From assembly GCF_000205025.1 (NCBI RefSeq), contig NZ_GL883695.1, positions 1 to 64,000 of the forward strand: a stretch of 64,000 nt of DNA. Reading direction: 5' to 3'. Source of the stretch: Parasutterella excrementihominis YIT 11859. GTDB taxonomy: Bacteria > Pseudomonadota > Gammaproteobacteria > Burkholderiales > Burkholderiaceae_F. Below the pieces are notes generated by a model that worked only from the letters and a program-made list of their open reading frames with translations, had not been told where the DNA came from and did not search any database. Below are positions 35,947-41,281 of the stretch, one piece after another (the stretch's first letter is position 1; the number at the start of each line of letters is the position of its first letter). The position numbers and the translations under genes were made by a program.

Positions 35947-36020
35947 AAACAAAAACTCCCTCCGGAGTGTTGACACGCTAGGACGGATACATTCAGAAGA
36001 TCCGGAGGAAGTTTTTGTTT
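35947..36020. repeat. Inverted repeat 5 in a divergent gap
   Basis: Arms 35947-35966 and 36001-36020 pair over 20 positions with one C-A mismatch (G-U on the leftward strand). A-tract and T-tract on either side let it act as a terminator in either direction. Confidence 0.75.
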
Positions 36021-36406: not shown

Positions 36407-36495
36407 TTTACCTGAGTTAATAAATCGATGAGCAAATATTAACCTAGGTAAACTAAAAAGTAAAGCAAATCGTTAAGTATTTTTACTTAGATAAA
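36407..36495. promoter_or_regulatory. Left operator cluster (three sites)
   Basis: TTTACCTGAGTTAA (36407-36420), TTAACCTAGGTAAA (36439-36452) and TTTACTTAGATAAA (36482-36495) match the palindromes in the right cluster at 41005-41086. They overlap the leftward promoter, so repressor binding here would shut the early operon. Confidence 0.8.
36436..36464 (-). promoter_or_regulatory. Left early promoter (PL-like)
   Basis: On the minus strand TTTACT (36459-36464) and TAATAT (36436-36441) are separated by 17 bases. The middle operator lies inside the spacer and -10 box. Confidence 0.65.
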
Positions 36496-36529: not shown

Positions 36530-36573
36530 AAAAAGCCGCTCTCGCGGCCATAAAAAACCGCCCGGGGGCGGCT
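36530..36573 (-). terminator. Tandem intrinsic terminators after rhuM-like gene
   Basis: Two stems on the minus strand, CCGCCC/GGGCGG (36558-36571) and GCCGC/GCGGC (36535-36548), each followed by a T-run. They insulate the left promoter from the lysogenic transcript. Confidence 0.8.
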
Positions 36574-36590
36574 TGTAAGTTATGGGTAGA

Positions 36591-37583
36591 TTATTTCTTT
36601 AATTTTTTAACTTCGTTTAGGAAGTTCTTAAAGTCTCTGCCTATCGGCTGAGTTTTGTTGAAAATTTCGTATTCTTTGTGAGCTTTTTCTTCAGCCTGCT
36701 TTTTAGAAACCTGTCCGTTTCCTTCTAAAACCGGGAGGTCATTGAACGCCAGGAACTTGTCTACAGACTGGCGCAGCTCGAGCATACTAAAATTCTTCTT
36801 GCGTTCAATCTGTCCTTCAATGTAATCAAAATAACTGTTGACGGAACGCTCTAATGACTTGAGCTCCTTTTCGTCCAAATAGTTTTTTGCAATTGTCGTA
36901 TCTGATTTATTGACACGCCCCTCCGGGCTGTTAGACCACGTTTTCAAACCCATGTGTGGCTTCGTGTGGTCTGCTCTGGCATGAATAATCTCGGCGGCAG
37001 TTTGATTGTTGATGGCAAAGTGAAAACGGTTCTGAACAGTTGCAAAAAAGCGTCTTGCTTCCAATGAATGACTGTCGTAGTCGATGCTGCATTCCTTGAA
37101 TATTTCAGTAACTTGAAGCCAGATCCGCTGTTCGCTTGCTCGGATGGAGCGAACTCGTTCCAATAATTCTTGAAAGTAGTCTTTTCCAAGAACAGTCTTA
37201 GCTTGCTTTAGGCGATCATCATCCAAGGCAAATCCTTTGATAATGTATTCCTTGAGAACTTTCGTTGCCCACTGACGGAAATGGGTCGCTTGAATACTGT
37301 TGACCCTATAGCCTACGGCGATAATCGCATCTAAGTTGTAATGCATTACGTTATACGATTTGCGATTTGTAGCAACTATTCGGAAATTCCGAATAGTTGA
37401 ATTTTGCTCTAATTCGCCAGATTCAAATACGTTTTTAAGATGTTCATTAATTGTTGTGAGAGAGACGTTAAATAGCTCAGCCATTTGTCTTTGAGAGAGC
37501 CATAGTGTTTCATTTTCAACTACTACAGCCACAACGGGACCGTCATCAATATTTCCGTAAAGGACGATATTCTTTTCTTCCAT
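36591..37583 (-). CDS. RhuM-family protein
   Basis: 330 aa. The N-terminal WLSQRQMAELFNVSLTTINEHL and RNFRIVATNRKSYNVMHYNLDAIIAVGYRVNS are typical of RhuM (first described on Salmonella SPI-3), with a C-terminal helical region and PIGRDFKNF. Members are common on mobile elements; the molecular role is not settled. Placed downstream of the repressors, it is likely expressed in the lysogen. No clear ribosome site upstream. Confidence 0.85.
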   Translation of the reverse strand: MEEKNIVLYGNIDDGPVVAVVVENETLWLSQRQMAELFNVSLTTINEHLKNVFESGELEQNSTIRNFRIVATNRKSYNVMHYNLDAIIAVGYRVNSIQATHFRQWATKVLKEYIIKGFALDDDRLKQAKTVLGKDYFQELLERVRSIRASEQRIWLQVTEIFKECSIDYDSHSLEARRFFATVQNRFHFAINNQTAAEIIHARADHTKPHMGLKTWSNSPEGRVNKSDTTIAKNYLDEKELKSLERSVNSYFDYIEGQIERKKNFSMLELRQSVDKFLAFNDLPVLEGNGQVSKKQAEEKAHKEYEIFNKTQPIGRDFKNFLNEVKKLKK

Positions 37584-37727
37584 AATTTTTTGAAAGTCGA
37601 TGTTTTGTCAGCCACTTATTTTAAGACTGGTTAAAAAGGAATAAGTTTTATCGTTACCGATTTTGGTAGCGGGGTTTTACCCAATAAGTAATCTTGGTTG
37701 AAGCTGTATTAACGCCTTAAAAATAAA

Positions 37728-37754
37728 TAAAAAAAGTAAGCCGCCCGGAGGCGG
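37728..37754 (-). terminator. Intrinsic terminator (leftward)
   Basis: CCGCC and GGCGG pair around CGGA, with a T7 run a few bases further on the minus strand. It separates the P63C gene from rhuM-like. Confidence 0.65.
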
Positions 37755-37774
37755 TCAAAAAGTGAATTCAGTGT

Positions 37775-38740
37775 TTATTCATCAAATTCAAAGGGCAACT
37801 GTCCTCCGAAAGCTAAAGAGAACCTTCGTTCGTATTCTTCCACAGACTGGCTGGTTTTGGCGATTCCGACTACTTGCCAAATATGTGCACGCAAAGCTGT
37901 TAAGCCAATTTCGTTGAGGAATTGGTGAAGCTTGTCGTATTTTTTGCCCTTTGATTCTTTTTTAGCTTCCTTGAGCAATGCAAGAAGCTTGCCGTTGCTC
38001 TTGGCCAAAGGAAGGTAAATAAACTTCAAAGTTAGATGGTAATGCTCCCAGTTACGACCGCGGACTGGTACGGGAATGTCATAAAGTCGCTGCCATTCTG
38101 CGTATAAGTCGTCTGGGAACTCTTTTGACCATTTTCTTGCCTCCTCAAGAATGTATTGCCTAAAGGCTGCAATAACAGCCTCTTTCGTAGAGTTGTATCC
38201 AGCGAGCTTATAAACAAGTTCTCTAATACCTAGTTTGGCAGAGGCTTGAAGAATTATCGAAGCATTTTTTACTAAAAAAGCCTGGTTTGATTTAAGTTGA
38301 TTATTGTCATTTGCCCTGATTATTGCTTGGCAGATGTCAATCAGAATCGTCACGTCATATCCATAAGCCTTCCGCCCGGAACCAGTCTGATCTAGTTTAA
38401 AAACAATGGGTTGGTCTGTTTTTTTGGAAAGTTCGGAACCAATATACGGAAGCATAGACTGAGAGCTTAAGAACTTTTTTATAGCCGTTCCGCCCCCTGT
38501 CGCAAAACCCAACGCTTCAGCGATTCCTCTTTGGCTCATAACGGCCGTATGGTTTGAGTCGTTTAGGACGTAGCAGGGGATATCGACACCAATCACCTCC
38601 TTGAAGTTCCCTTTATGAAGGGCCTTAAAGCCACCGCTTTTTACTAATGCTGCGTCCCGGGCAATTTCAGATCTACGCTCGGGAGAGAGTTTCTTAGCTC
38701 TTTCCAAACCGCCTTTGGACTGCTTAGTTTTACTATCCAT
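37775..38740 (-). CDS. P63C-domain protein
   Basis: 321 aa from the ATG at 38740 (AGG eight bases upstream). The C-terminal half (KEFPDDLYAEWQRLYDIP, then FIYLPLAKSNGKLLALLKEA) matches the P63C domain found in phage and mobile-element proteins. N-terminal basic segment (SKGGLERAKKLSPERRSE). Function unknown; often beside immunity genes. AT-rich 190-base gap to rhuM-like. Confidence 0.8.
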   Translation of the reverse strand: MDSKTKQSKGGLERAKKLSPERRSEIARDAALVKSGGFKALHKGNFKEVIGVDIPCYVLNDSNHTAVMSQRGIAEALGFATGGGTAIKKFLSSQSMLPYIGSELSKKTDQPIVFKLDQTGSGRKAYGYDVTILIDICQAIIRANDNNQLKSNQAFLVKNASIILQASAKLGIRELVYKLAGYNSTKEAVIAAFRQYILEEARKWSKEFPDDLYAEWQRLYDIPVPVRGRNWEHYHLTLKFIYLPLAKSNGKLLALLKEAKKESKGKKYDKLHQFLNEIGLTALRAHIWQVVGIAKTSQSVEEYERRFSLAFGGQLPFEFDE

Positions 38741-38833
38741 AGCAAGCACCTAAAAATATAATTTGCTTGCTTGATTGTAACTGATTTTATGCTTAATTAT
38801 TGCAGGCTAATTTTGGTGATCCCATACAAGAAG

Positions 38834-38849
38834 GCCGCCCGGAGGCGGC
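38834..38849 (-). terminator. Hairpin, probable weak terminator
   Basis: GCCGCC and GGCGGC around CGGA; only a short T-rich stretch (CTTCTTG) follows on the minus strand. It sits just after the 38855-39154 gene. Confidence 0.5.
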
Positions 38850-38854
38850 GTTTG

Positions 38855-39154
38855 TTATTTTTTTAATAATTGAACAATTACGATCGACCAACCTATGATG
38901 GCAACAACCAGCGGCACTAGGATTGCTCCTACTATCCATTTTGTTTGCTTTCCAATGGCCTCGGAAACATGGGTGAGTGTACGTTGATCGGATACGGCAA
39001 TTTTTCCTTCCAGATCTTTTATGTCGGCTTTGGTTGCAAAGCTTTCCAGTCTGCCTTCTATGTACCCTAGACGAGTCTCATGTCCCATCATTATGCCCAC
39101 CGAGTCTTGATCTCTTTGAGCTAATTTTATCTTATTCCCCTGATCGGCTTCCAT
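38855..39154 (-). CDS. Small coiled-coil membrane protein
   Basis: 99 aa: helical coiled-coil region (about 20-65) and a C-terminal membrane helix (about 73-96). Tail-anchored layout. Phage proteins of this shape occur in exclusion and lysis roles; neither is shown. AAGG upstream. Confidence 0.65.
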   Translation of the reverse strand: MEADQGNKIKLAQRDQDSVGIMMGHETRLGYIEGRLESFATKADIKDLEGKIAVSDQRTLTHVSEAIGKQTKWIVGAILVPLVVAIIGWSIVIVQLLKK

Positions 39155-39159
39155 TGCGT

Positions 39160-39507
39160 TTACCTTACTTGGTTATTTTTCCAGGCCTTGGCTTTTTTGA
39201 TTAACTGGAAGTAGTCGAATCTCAATTCACAGCTGCAAACGTTGCACCTTAAACGCATGTAAACACTAGGAGGTTCATCTGAGGGCTTCAGGATAAATTT
39301 TGCGTCTCTCACTCCTTCAGTAACAGGAGGAGTTGTATACCTGACGGAGTTGGCCATTTCCAATGCTGGTTCTCCGACGCACATGGCCGAGCTCTCCGTG
39401 ATCATGCTCCAGTCATTACTTTTGCACCAAGGGCAAGAAGACCTATTGATTGCATTCAGATACTCAACGACTAATGGTGCATCACAAGAAAGAAATTGTT
39501 CTGTCAT
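39160..39507 (-). CDS. Phage protein with possible zinc-binding cysteines
   Basis: 115 aa from the ATG at 39507 (GGAG upstream). CPWC near the N-terminus and CNVCSC near residue 95 could form a four-cysteine zinc site. No family recognised. In the lysogenic transcript below the repressors. Confidence 0.6.
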   Translation of the reverse strand: MTEQFLSCDAPLVVEYLNAINRSSCPWCKSNDWSMITESSAMCVGEPALEMANSVRYTTPPVTEGVRDAKFILKPSDEPPSVYMRLRCNVCSCELRFDYFQLIKKAKAWKNNQVR

Positions 39508-39620: not shown

Positions 39621-40295
39621 TTAAACCGATCCAGATCTTTCTATGACTTCTCCAATGATCTGGACTTGCTCAGTGTCGACTGGTTTTATTGTTTCGTCCT
39701 CAAAATTTGGATTTTCTGAATGAACCACTATTGAGCCGTCAATCTTTCTATAGAGCCTCTTAACACGTAAGGCATTCCCAAAAACAAAGGCGTAGATTCG
39801 ACCATCGATAATCTCTGTTTTTGAACAGTCGACCAGGACAACATCGTGGTCGAGCAAAAGAGGCTCCATAGAGTCCCCCTTTACTTTGAACCGTTTGCAG
39901 TCTTCTGGGTTGATGTTTTTTCGCTGAAACCAAGATCGGCGATAAGCAGCCTTATATTCAGAAGCAAGTTCTTCTAATGTTGAATTTTGTTCAAATCCTG
40001 CCGCAAACCGAATTTTGTATTCTGGAATTTCTACCCAATCGTCGTCATCACAGACTTCTTCCGTCACCAAAACATTTGGGGACTTCATTGGACCGTTACC
40101 GGTTGCTAACCACGTTGAAGAGACGCCAAGCAATTTGGCAACTTTAGGAAGGTAAATAGATTTGATGCTTTTCGACTTGCCAGTAAACCAATCAGAAACC
40201 GAGGCCGGAGAGATCGAACATAACCTAGCGATGTCACTTTTCTTTAGTCCGGAATCACTTAGCGCCAAGGTTAAACGCTCTGCCAATGTTTTCAT
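39621..40295 (-). CDS. S24-type phage repressor (second of tandem pair)
   Basis: 224 aa. N-terminal HTH (KSDIARLCSISPASVSDW), possible autocleavage site AAG in RFAAGFEQN, and S24 catalytic serine in GDSMEP with lysine in ALRVKR. This is the CI/LexA layout: RecA-stimulated self-cleavage lifts repression. Starts one base after the other repressor. Confidence 0.85.
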   Translation of the reverse strand: MKTLAERLTLALSDSGLKKSDIARLCSISPASVSDWFTGKSKSIKSIYLPKVAKLLGVSSTWLATGNGPMKSPNVLVTEEVCDDDDWVEIPEYKIRFAAGFEQNSTLEELASEYKAAYRRSWFQRKNINPEDCKRFKVKGDSMEPLLLDHDVVLVDCSKTEIIDGRIYAFVFGNALRVKRLYRKIDGSIVVHSENPNFEDETIKPVDTEQVQIIGEVIERSGSV

Positions 40296-40296
40296 T

Positions 40297-40977
40297 TCAA
40301 ATGTCCACGAGTTTCAAACTTTTGATTACGCGTCCGATGATGCGGACCTCAATATCAGAATCAAGGCTGATTTCAATGTCCTTATATGCTTTATTCGTTG
40401 AAAGGAGTGCGATCTTCTTGCCTATTAGTTTTTGTACTCGTTTGATATAGGCTTCTCCATCAACCACTAACAGGTATATACCATCCCTTAAGGTTTCTTT
40501 GTCTGTTATGTCAATGAACACGGCGTCCCCGTCACGGATCTCTGGCTCCATGGAGTCACCAAGCGCAGTGATGATCTTCACGTCTCTTGGGTTGTAGAAA
40601 GCAAAGTTCCGAGAGAACCACGCTGGAGTAACTTGAAGGGTCTTGATTTCCGGATAGTCCTCGAAATTCATCACTCCGACACCGCAAGAGCCATAAAAGT
40701 CAACTTGTTGGATGGAGACCATGTTGGCAGCAGGCATGGTTTTGTCGTTGATTGAACCAATGCCTTTCATGAGCCATTCCGTGGTGATGTCCAAGAATGA
40801 ACAAACAGCAAAAACGTCATCGAATTTCGGCTTTGAGACATCGCCATCGATCCATTTTTTGATTCCGGCAGGTGTGATGCCGGTTGCCTTTGATATGTCC
40901 GCCGGAGATTTTCCGCGCAACGCTAAAGCCTCATTTAAGCGGTCTGTCCACGTTTTTTGAGAGTCATTTGTTCTCAT
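40297..40977 (-). CDS. S24-type phage repressor (CI-like, operator-proximal)
   Basis: 226 aa. HTH (ADISKATGITPAGIKKWI), possible cleavage site CG in GSCGVGVM, S24 serine in GDSMEP and lysine in EAYIKRV. First gene of the leftward lysogenic transcript, preceded by GGAGG and by the operator cluster. Likely the main maintenance repressor, by position. Confidence 0.9.
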   Translation of the reverse strand: MRTNDSQKTWTDRLNEALALRGKSPADISKATGITPAGIKKWIDGDVSKPKFDDVFAVCSFLDITTEWLMKGIGSINDKTMPAANMVSIQQVDFYGSCGVGVMNFEDYPEIKTLQVTPAWFSRNFAFYNPRDVKIITALGDSMEPEIRDGDAVFIDITDKETLRDGIYLLVVDGEAYIKRVQKLIGKKIALLSTNKAYKDIEISLDSDIEVRIIGRVIKSLKLVDI

Positions 40978-41014
40978 ACGTTCCTCCGTCTGTGTGAGAT
41001 AAATTTAACCTAAG

Positions 41015-41043
41015 TTAACACTGAATTGGTTTACCTAGGTAAA
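41015..41043 (-). promoter_or_regulatory. Repressor maintenance promoter (PRM-like)
   Basis: On the minus strand TTTACC (41038-41043) and TGTTAA (41015-41020) with a 17-base spacer. Weaker -10 than the rightward promoter, as expected for an activated promoter. Confidence 0.5.
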
Positions 41044-41058
41044 TTTTTAAGTTAATAT
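41030..41058 (+). promoter_or_regulatory. Right early promoter (PR-like)
   Basis: TTTACC (41030-41035) and TAATAT (41053-41058), 17-base spacer. Drives the cro-like gene and replication genes. The middle operator covers its -35. Confidence 0.65.
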
Positions 41059-41089
41059 ATAGGAGTTAATTTTTAACCTAAGTAAAATC

Positions 41090-41281
41090 ATGAAAAAACT
41101 TGAAGAGCAGGTTTTTGATGAACTTCTGGGTGAGTTCAAACGGAAGTCTGTAATTGCAAAGACCTTTGGGTTAAGTGCTGCCGCCGTCACTAAGTGGTCG
41201 AAGAACGGAGTTCCTCTTGGAAGGCTCCCTTACCTTCGGCTCGCGTTTCCACATTTCAAAGCTTGGAAAAAATCCAAATAG
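41090..41281 (+). CDS. Cro-like small HTH protein
   Basis: 63 aa. FGLSAAAVTKWSKNG is a helix-turn-helix of the Cro/YdaS type. First gene rightward of the operators, divergent from the repressors. No ribosome site sits at normal distance: AGGAG is about 25 bases upstream and the gap is filled by the third operator. Confidence 0.8.
   Translation: MKKLEEQVFDELLGEFKRKSVIAKTFGLSAAAVTKWSKNGVPLGRLPYLRLAFPHFKAWKKSK

Follow-up and report, generated by a model that had tools for sequence, protein, structure and literature searches.

What does the product of rhuM act on, and what is this gene doing behind the repressors of a prophage? The question is raised by 64,000 nucleotides of Parasutterella excrementihominis YIT 11859 (contig NZ_GL883695.1, positions 1 to 64,000; hereafter the window), in which a block of four genes at 36530-39507, among them rhuM and a P63C-domain gene, follows two phage repressor genes. 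RhuM is widespread in prophages, plasmids and restriction-modification (R-M) operons, and no molecular function has been established for it in the literature searched. The preliminary description of the block did not include what we consider its most informative feature, a palindrome inside rhuM. The likely answer, in our view, is that the target of the RhuM protein is this palindrome in its own gene, a 25-bp site that a RhuM dimer would bind, most likely with repression as the result; the best explanation of the block as a whole, taken jointly with this self-site and held with the same confidence, is that its accessory genes are terminated separately and occupy the rex slot in an immunity region of the lambda type.

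The rhuM gene (36591-37583, minus strand) encodes 330 amino acids, with a winged helix at about residues 17-82 followed by a helical C-terminal part. Its product matched Pfam PF13310 (expect value, E, 3e-101; 338 bits against a cut-off of 33.7) and, over residues 3-327 of 330, the PADLOC profile PDC-S05 (E 4e-143), and is thus a nearly full-length member of the family; PADLOC ranks RhuM as a candidate defence gene only. At 37373-37399 the gene contains a perfect 27-bp palindrome, CAACTATTCGGAATTTCCGAATAGTTG, which encodes wing strand 1 (residues 62-71) and which we propose as a RhuM binding site. Other RhuM genes carry a palindrome of different sequence at the same place, and the family-wide site comprises 25 bp with 12 arm pairs (denoted k). 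After near-duplicates had been dropped, 170 RhuM genes were reduced to 120 nonredundant ones, 117 of which could be aligned at codon 58. The best palindrome was centred at the same codon position in 110/120 genes. At the fixed codon position, with no search for the best centre, at least 9 of the 12 arm pairs were complementary in 108/117 genes, compared with 3.4% of genes at the best of 839 other offsets, and 1209 of 1404 arm pairs were complementary in all, against a mean of 711 and a maximum of 778 in 1000 permutations. Pairs k3 to k7 were complementary in 107-112 of the 117 genes, each with three or four pair types (110-gene table), and these inner half-sites came in 33 kinds.

The pairing exceeds what the protein sequence demands. 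When synonymous codons were permuted, the mean number of pairs fell from 10.76 to 7.79, an excess of 2.97 (0.92 at the next best position), and in 95/117 genes no more than 5 of 100 synonymous shuffles equalled the observed pairing. Wobble positions pair with wobble positions across the arms. Where both partners were fourfold degenerate, they matched in 27/27 cases at k6 (permuted mean 13.9, maximum 23) and in 106/106 at k12 (permuted maximum 96); no clear excess was seen at k9 (45/53 vs 42.0, maximum 48), and k3 offered only three such cases. The covariation score was 0.843, compared with 0.259 after shuffling and at most 0.212 when slid, for 60 sites hand-picked from 109; this score leans towards structure because the sites were mostly chosen as good palindromes, and the unselected count is the one for 117 genes. 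The possibility that such palindromes are a general property of such genes was rejected by a P63C control (149 nonredundant genes), in which the largest excess was 0.66, as against the value given above for RhuM.

The structure model of RhuM (mean predicted local distance difference test score 85) shows a winged helix with a predicted recognition helix at residues 42-55 (codons at 37419-37460, minus strand) and wing strands at 64-70 and 76-82. Helix and site were compared in 109 genes, those of the 120 with an off-centre palindrome or an unreadable helix being dropped. Distances between helix residues 43-47 and distances between inner half-sites (k3-k8) correlated with r 0.63, and the partial r given C-terminal divergence was also 0.63; the correlation was reached in 0/2000 Mantel permutations, the largest being 0.08. 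Among 1966 pairs whose C-terminal parts were more than 52% different, the 11 with identical helices differed on average at 0.45 of 6 bases, and the 214 that differed at all five helix residues were 4.40 of 6 bases apart. The helix and the C-terminal domain were nearly uncorrelated (r 0.10), which shows the specificity changing as a unit.

Residue by residue, the partial correlation with the site was 0.36 at 43, 0.48 at 44, 0.27 at 46 and 0.55 at 47, with 0.20, 0.17 and 0.22 at residues 40, 41 and 42 and 0.02 at residue 45. The linker residues 48-62, which are nearer the site, gave only -0.06 to 0.12; residues 64-69 are encoded by the site itself, hence their correlation with it. The map of mutual information followed an order along the arm, residue 47 going with k3-k5, 44 with k4-k5, 43 with k4-k6, and 42 and 46 with k7-k8. 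As examples, T-I-x-E-H was found with CGGAA, T-I-N-Y-H with CGAAA, P-A-I-S-K-H with TTTCCA, S-x-I-S-R-H with TTGCAA and D-N-I-S with CCGAGA. Statistically, then, the specificity of the site matches the helix expected to read DNA. The outer half-site, four bases that are mostly AACT or AGTT, goes with the wing type: it correlated with residues 63 and 70, which the site partly encodes, and with wing residues 73 and 77 (0.79 and 0.75), and showed no correlation with the recognition helix. Separately, one genome carries two adjacent RhuM genes (L015) that differ both in their helices and in their self-sites.

The half-site could also be predicted from the helix. In a leave-one-out analysis, the gene with the nearest helix gave 5.30 of the 6 inner bases, compared with 3.09 for the gene closest in its C-terminal part and 2.42 for a random partner; when partners had to be more than 50% diverged in the C-terminal part, the values were 4.46 for the helix, 2.37 for the C-terminal neighbour and 2.34 for a random partner. 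Among loci fetched later, 22 of 28 were parsed, and for these the helix gave 5.36 of 6 bases vs 2.28 for a random partner, with at least 9 pairs in 21/22 and the exact place in 21/22. Twenty later genome loci (L400-L419) had been picked mostly for matching over the first third only. The unparsed loci were L401, L405, L410, L411, L414 and L416; a freer search found palindromes with 10-12 of 12 pairs in them, except in L401, which had none at the place. The self-site is also carried by a RhuM-Fic fusion (L426; PF02661, E 2e-12), and from these sequences it would seem to go with the winged helix irrespective of the domain that follows.

From these patterns we infer that RhuM dimerises, binds and represses, and the binding to its own gene is probable and strongly supported in silico. 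A RhuM dimer would sit on the intragenic palindrome with each recognition helix reading about 6 bp per arm; judging from k3-k8, the centres of the half-sites would be about 11 bp apart, that is, one helical turn. Bound about 200 bp into the gene, the dimer would most likely act as a roadblock to rhuM transcription, and the C-terminal domain, whether RhuM-type or Fic, may be an effector that is held in check in this way. Target, reader and effector would then move as a single gene that is functional in any insertion slot, and self-control of this kind would be useful to a mobile gene that has no dependable operator upstream and whose effector needs to be kept at a low level. When the rhuM gene is part of a type I restriction operon, the roadblock could lower the downstream genes too. 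The exact inner site occurs once in the window's genome, with one single-mismatch copy on another contig, and because the exact site is single and second copies show no clear excess, action of RhuM on its own gene is the simplest reading.

Several observations weigh against this reading or narrow it. At the fixed place, 9/117 genes had fewer than 9 paired positions, and in the 60 covariation sites further pair types numbered 28, against 28.4 in shuffles. The constraints on protein and DNA are entangled, because the amino acids already set 7.8 of the 12 pairs (the mean of the synonymous shuffles). The sequences are related by descent, and our controls lower the effect of kinship and do not abolish it; when partners were more than 55% diverged, prediction by the helix dropped to 3.65 of 6 bases (C-terminal neighbour 2.28, random 2.25). 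Some coupling extends beyond the helix, residue 21 giving 0.15, the largest value elsewhere before the helix. Second copies near the gene numbered 7 (in 6/58 loci) vs 3.8 expected and indicated no promoter target, and a site in the terminal position that it has here in the transcription unit would regulate no gene but rhuM. The mismatches between the arms at k2-k12 (G-T 30, A-C 22, other 44) also leave some room for an RNA hairpin, which is weighed below.

A wider interpretation sees in the winged helix of RhuM a module addressed to itself, in which the gene of the reader holds its own address, the two stay in step across dozens of specificities, effectors are swappable and occupancy of the site sets the state of the effector. 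We offer this tentatively, as a possibility that we would not count on; if true, RhuM would be a single-gene switch able to distinguish its own allele from foreign ones, or to sense that its locus has been lost or invaded. A related alternative is that the site is a self mark: the own site would keep a RhuM effector inactive or licensed, and the effector would act on incoming elements with or without a matching site, in defence or exclusion. The candidate status of RhuM in PADLOC is consistent with this, as are its highly diversified specificity (the 33 inner half-sites) and its occurrence both in prophage slots and, in 5/8 plasmid records hand-picked from 40 listed of 125, inside type I R-M operons. 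However, no further targets were found near the gene, and two RhuM genes of one genome (L403 and L404) share the same specificity; we regard the self mark as unlikely.

The other genes of the block bear on a different alternative, namely that all four genes are selected together as a unit of lysogenic conversion, a four-gene defence island, as the preliminary description had it. In the direction of transcription the block begins with a gene for a zinc-ribbon-like protein of 115 amino acids with two CxxC motifs (39160-39507; phrog_4293, E 2e-6), followed by a gene for a coiled-coil protein of 99 amino acids with a hydrophobic, presumably tail-anchoring stretch at the C-terminus (38855-39154), whose match to XhlA (E 0.011) is below threshold. 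The P63C-domain gene (37775-38740) encodes 321 amino acids counted from ATG; its product is a member of PF10546 (E 4e-11, 44 bits, cut-off 26.1) and matched phrog_2384 over residues 4-316 (E 8e-84). Gene calls and family matches agree with the earlier claim that four genes follow the repressors in the same direction: all four are on the minus strand, as are the two S24 repressor genes. RhuM and P63C were also considered as sequence relatives and found unrelated (profile-profile comparison, probability 0.4%).

The common direction, the slot and the terminators would favour such a unit. As had been described, tandem terminators close the block on the minus strand, one stem 3' of rhuM (36558-36571, CCGCCCCCGGGCGG followed by a T run), recognised by reading the sequence, and an outer second one at 36534-36549, listed by the terminator scan. 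The idea of a single insulated block holds as far as these go; it seems not to hold within the block, where additional terminator-like stems lie 3' of the P63C gene (37741-37754, of the same stem family) and 3' of the tail-anchored gene (38834-38849, with a weak T tract on the minus strand). The 14-mer CCGCCYCCGGGCGG has 3 copies in the 2.83-Mb genome, all in the block, 3' of rhuM, the P63C gene and the tail-anchored gene (the last copy at 38835-38848); the stem is not private to the phage, since 3/10 other genomes have 1 to 4 copies. In the region of 33.5-42.5 kb, terminator-like sites on both strands numbered 23, compared with 9.4 expected. Because a terminator-like stem precedes each of them, rhuM and the P63C gene are each seemingly cut off from the preceding gene, and to judge from the sequence the block seems to consist of three units, each with its own termination, rather than of one. 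No convincing separate promoter was detected in the same region, where sigma-70-like sites numbered 11 vs 13 expected in shuffles. Apart from termination, the three near-identical stems might double as exchange points.

The slot itself was examined through the operators. Operator-like palindromes fitting the consensus TTWACCTARGTWAA form a left set of three (36407-36420, 36439-36452 and 36482-36495) and a right set of three (41005-41018, 41030-41043 and 41073-41086), the last of which lies just before the start codon of a Cro-like gene; the sites at 36439-36452 and 41030-41043 have zero mismatches on either strand. In the window the consensus gave 15 strand matches against a mean of 1.46 in shuffles, none of 100 shuffles reaching 15; 12 of these came from the six sites and the remaining three were single two-mismatch matches elsewhere. 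This places the left control region on firmer ground than the preliminary description could. The Cro-like gene (41090-41281, plus strand, 63 amino acids) was assigned weakly (P22_Cro 0.021, below the cut-off; phrog_8008, 3e-6). Two S24/helix-turn-helix (HTH) repressor genes with Pfam and PHROG matches, both on the minus strand, lie in tandem at 39621-40977; the first (40297-40977) adjoins the right operators and the second is at 39621-40295, and their products are of similar length and 27% identical over the local match. Since triple operator sets flank it at 36407-36495 and 41005-41086, the block fills an interval like that between the left and right operators (OL and OR) of lambda, and it has the location of RexAB-type genes: between OL and OR, behind cI and on the same strand. 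Homology to RexA or RexB was not found: for none of the four proteins did the Pfam and PHROG matches, taken up to E 0.1, include a Rex family. To the left of the left operators, an inverted repeat, CAAAAACTCCCTCCGGA ... TCCGGAGGAAGTTTTTG, lies at 35950-36020 in a long stretch without clear genes.

The company kept by these genes elsewhere does not favour the four-gene unit. A pairing of RhuM with P63C near repressors in other prophages had been anticipated, and it was not seen: of the loci examined, with DNA of varying length, 190 carried the label P63C and 126 the label RhuM; nine had both, and all nine were this phage. Among 150 related genomes, P63C was found in 8 and RhuM in 40; besides the window's own genome, G033 has the two genes as well, but not on the same contig. 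For the CxxC protein the count was 1/150, its own genome, and neither small protein had a match (E up to 0.01) among 50,697 phage records. The four genes do not form a conserved unit; it is the slot that recurs. The random presence of the four genes in relatives, which the preliminary description had named as telling against it, thus applies to the unit and does not apply to the slot. With RhuM and P63C together in no other phage's locus among those examined, no relatives found for the two small genes and terminator-like stems belonging to the separate units, we consider a four-gene unit improbable.

In 12 named phage records examined, of 39 with a match, P63C lay directly behind an annotated or placed repressor gene in 4 (ST104, Kuwabara, Midgardsormr38 and SI8), which, together with the OL-OR interval, bears out the earlier placement of the block in a lysogen-side slot behind repressors. 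The neighbouring repressor has HTH and S24 domains in Midgardsormr38 and SI8 and only a sub-threshold HTH match in Kuwabara. In 2/12 records (611R6 and Pkon1) P63C was beside Arc/Ant-type regulators, and in 5/12 (Javan441, Barco, Petra, DC1 and Lodos) it lay between a regulator and an integrase or near an integrase; SEN34 had none of these placements. RhuM was between an HTH_3 regulator and an integrase in 2/5 phage records (Javan67 and Javan332, Streptococcus satellites) and not in this position in the other three (Sidious, Bakery and WO). On viral contigs, a repressor-like gene no more than 6 genes upstream on the same strand was counted for 11/63 P63C loci and 15/60 RhuM loci, and a downstream integrase in the same orientation for 0/63 and 15/60, respectively; these counts come from a crude open-reading-frame caller with seeds partly from the same records and hence carry no null. 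Two further placements are recorded here for their own sake. The closest P63C relative found (L350:7205-8176, about 54-57% identical) lies upstream of a gene resembling glutamine synthetase, and no obvious prophage genes adjoin it; in Gordonia phage Sidious (L059:1-1154) genes of the RexA/RexB family share a leftward cluster with the RhuM gene.

Two more explanations concern the palindrome itself. It might form an RNA hairpin in the rhuM message, serving translation control or processing, with an indirect coupling to the helix. Covarying arms are equally typical of an RNA helix, and the site is transcribed. However, G-U-type mismatches were not clearly favoured in the counts given above, and a double-stranded DNA site for a protein dimer fits better for this reason; the centre has only one base; and a hairpin gives no account of coupling to residues 43, 44, 46 and 47 when residue 45 is close to zero and residues 48-62 are coupled weakly or not at all. 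We think the hairpin quite improbable. Least probable of all is that helix and palindrome, being neighbours about 50 nt apart, are merely exchanged between alleles as one cassette: this would fit the near absence of correlation between helix and C-terminal domain, but the linker 48-62 is nearer to the site yet little coupled, the inner half-site correlates with r 0.68 with the helix, 0.03 with residues 49-61 and 0.09 with residues 17-39, and cassette exchange leaves the matching of one arm to the other unexplained.

Binding of RhuM to a palindrome in its own gene remains the reading we prefer. The folds of RhuM and P63C were also compared with known structures. Sequence searches of solved structures gave a best E of 0.8 for P63C and nothing for RhuM. 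With the models, the top VIA-align row of RhuM was DdrC of Deinococcus radiodurans (8u0g, 7udi, 8u1j), a middling match with Z 8.6 and a root-mean-square deviation (rmsd) of 14.3 over 206 residues; the N-terminal domain alone aligned to 8u1j with Z 8.0 and rmsd 3.3 over 95. DdrC was also the top row for P63C, again middling (Z 7.0, rmsd 14.4 over 191). Foldseek gave E 3.6e-3 for RhuM with DdrC; for P63C, DdrC was not among the best 50 rows, and the top E was 2.2, to another protein. DdrC as the common top structural row of the two modelled proteins is only a lead. No sequence relation of DdrC to RhuM or P63C was found, and DdrC is reported to bind DNA without sequence specificity (PMC5436757), the opposite of what we infer for RhuM. 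In earlier work, gene neighbourhoods led to the proposal that RhuM acts as a toxin (PMC3710099), and the RhuM part of a RhuM-Fic protein was dispensable for the host-cell effects studied (PMC6529018). A self-site in rhuM is not described in the literature searched, including PMC3710099, PMC12629846, PMC6536676 and PMC6529018, where coverage of subscription journals and bioRxiv was thin, so that this is weak evidence of novelty.

The palindrome offers an immediate, testable handle on this family: it gives every RhuM a predicted binding site and a pattern of residues against bases that can be read off. If the proposal is true, rhuM would be a clear case of a coding sequence doubly constrained, as reader and as the thing read, and RhuM would supply naturally occurring DNA-binding domains that differ from one another. 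As to the phage block, a rhuM that carries its own control would suit a mobile gene landing in many slots.

The rexAB slot of lambda and the sieA slot of P22 are homes of lysogen-expressed exclusion genes. The present block resembles them in lying between OL and OR behind the repressor, and two P63C relatives have a place beside Arc/Ant-type regulators; it differs from them in having no rex or sie homology among its matches, two repressors and apparently separately terminated units. Within the RhuM family (PF13310 and PDC-S05, including RhuM-Fic fusions), the protein is a full-length member, type I R-M operons being a frequent home of its relatives, whereas the intragenic self-site is absent from descriptions of the family in the literature searched. 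In autoregulating HTH repressors and toxin-antitoxin operators, a DNA-binding protein reads a palindrome in its own locus. RhuM, as proposed here, would do the same; unlike theirs, its site is part of the very sequence that encodes the DNA-binding domain, always at one codon position, and varies together with the recognition helix.

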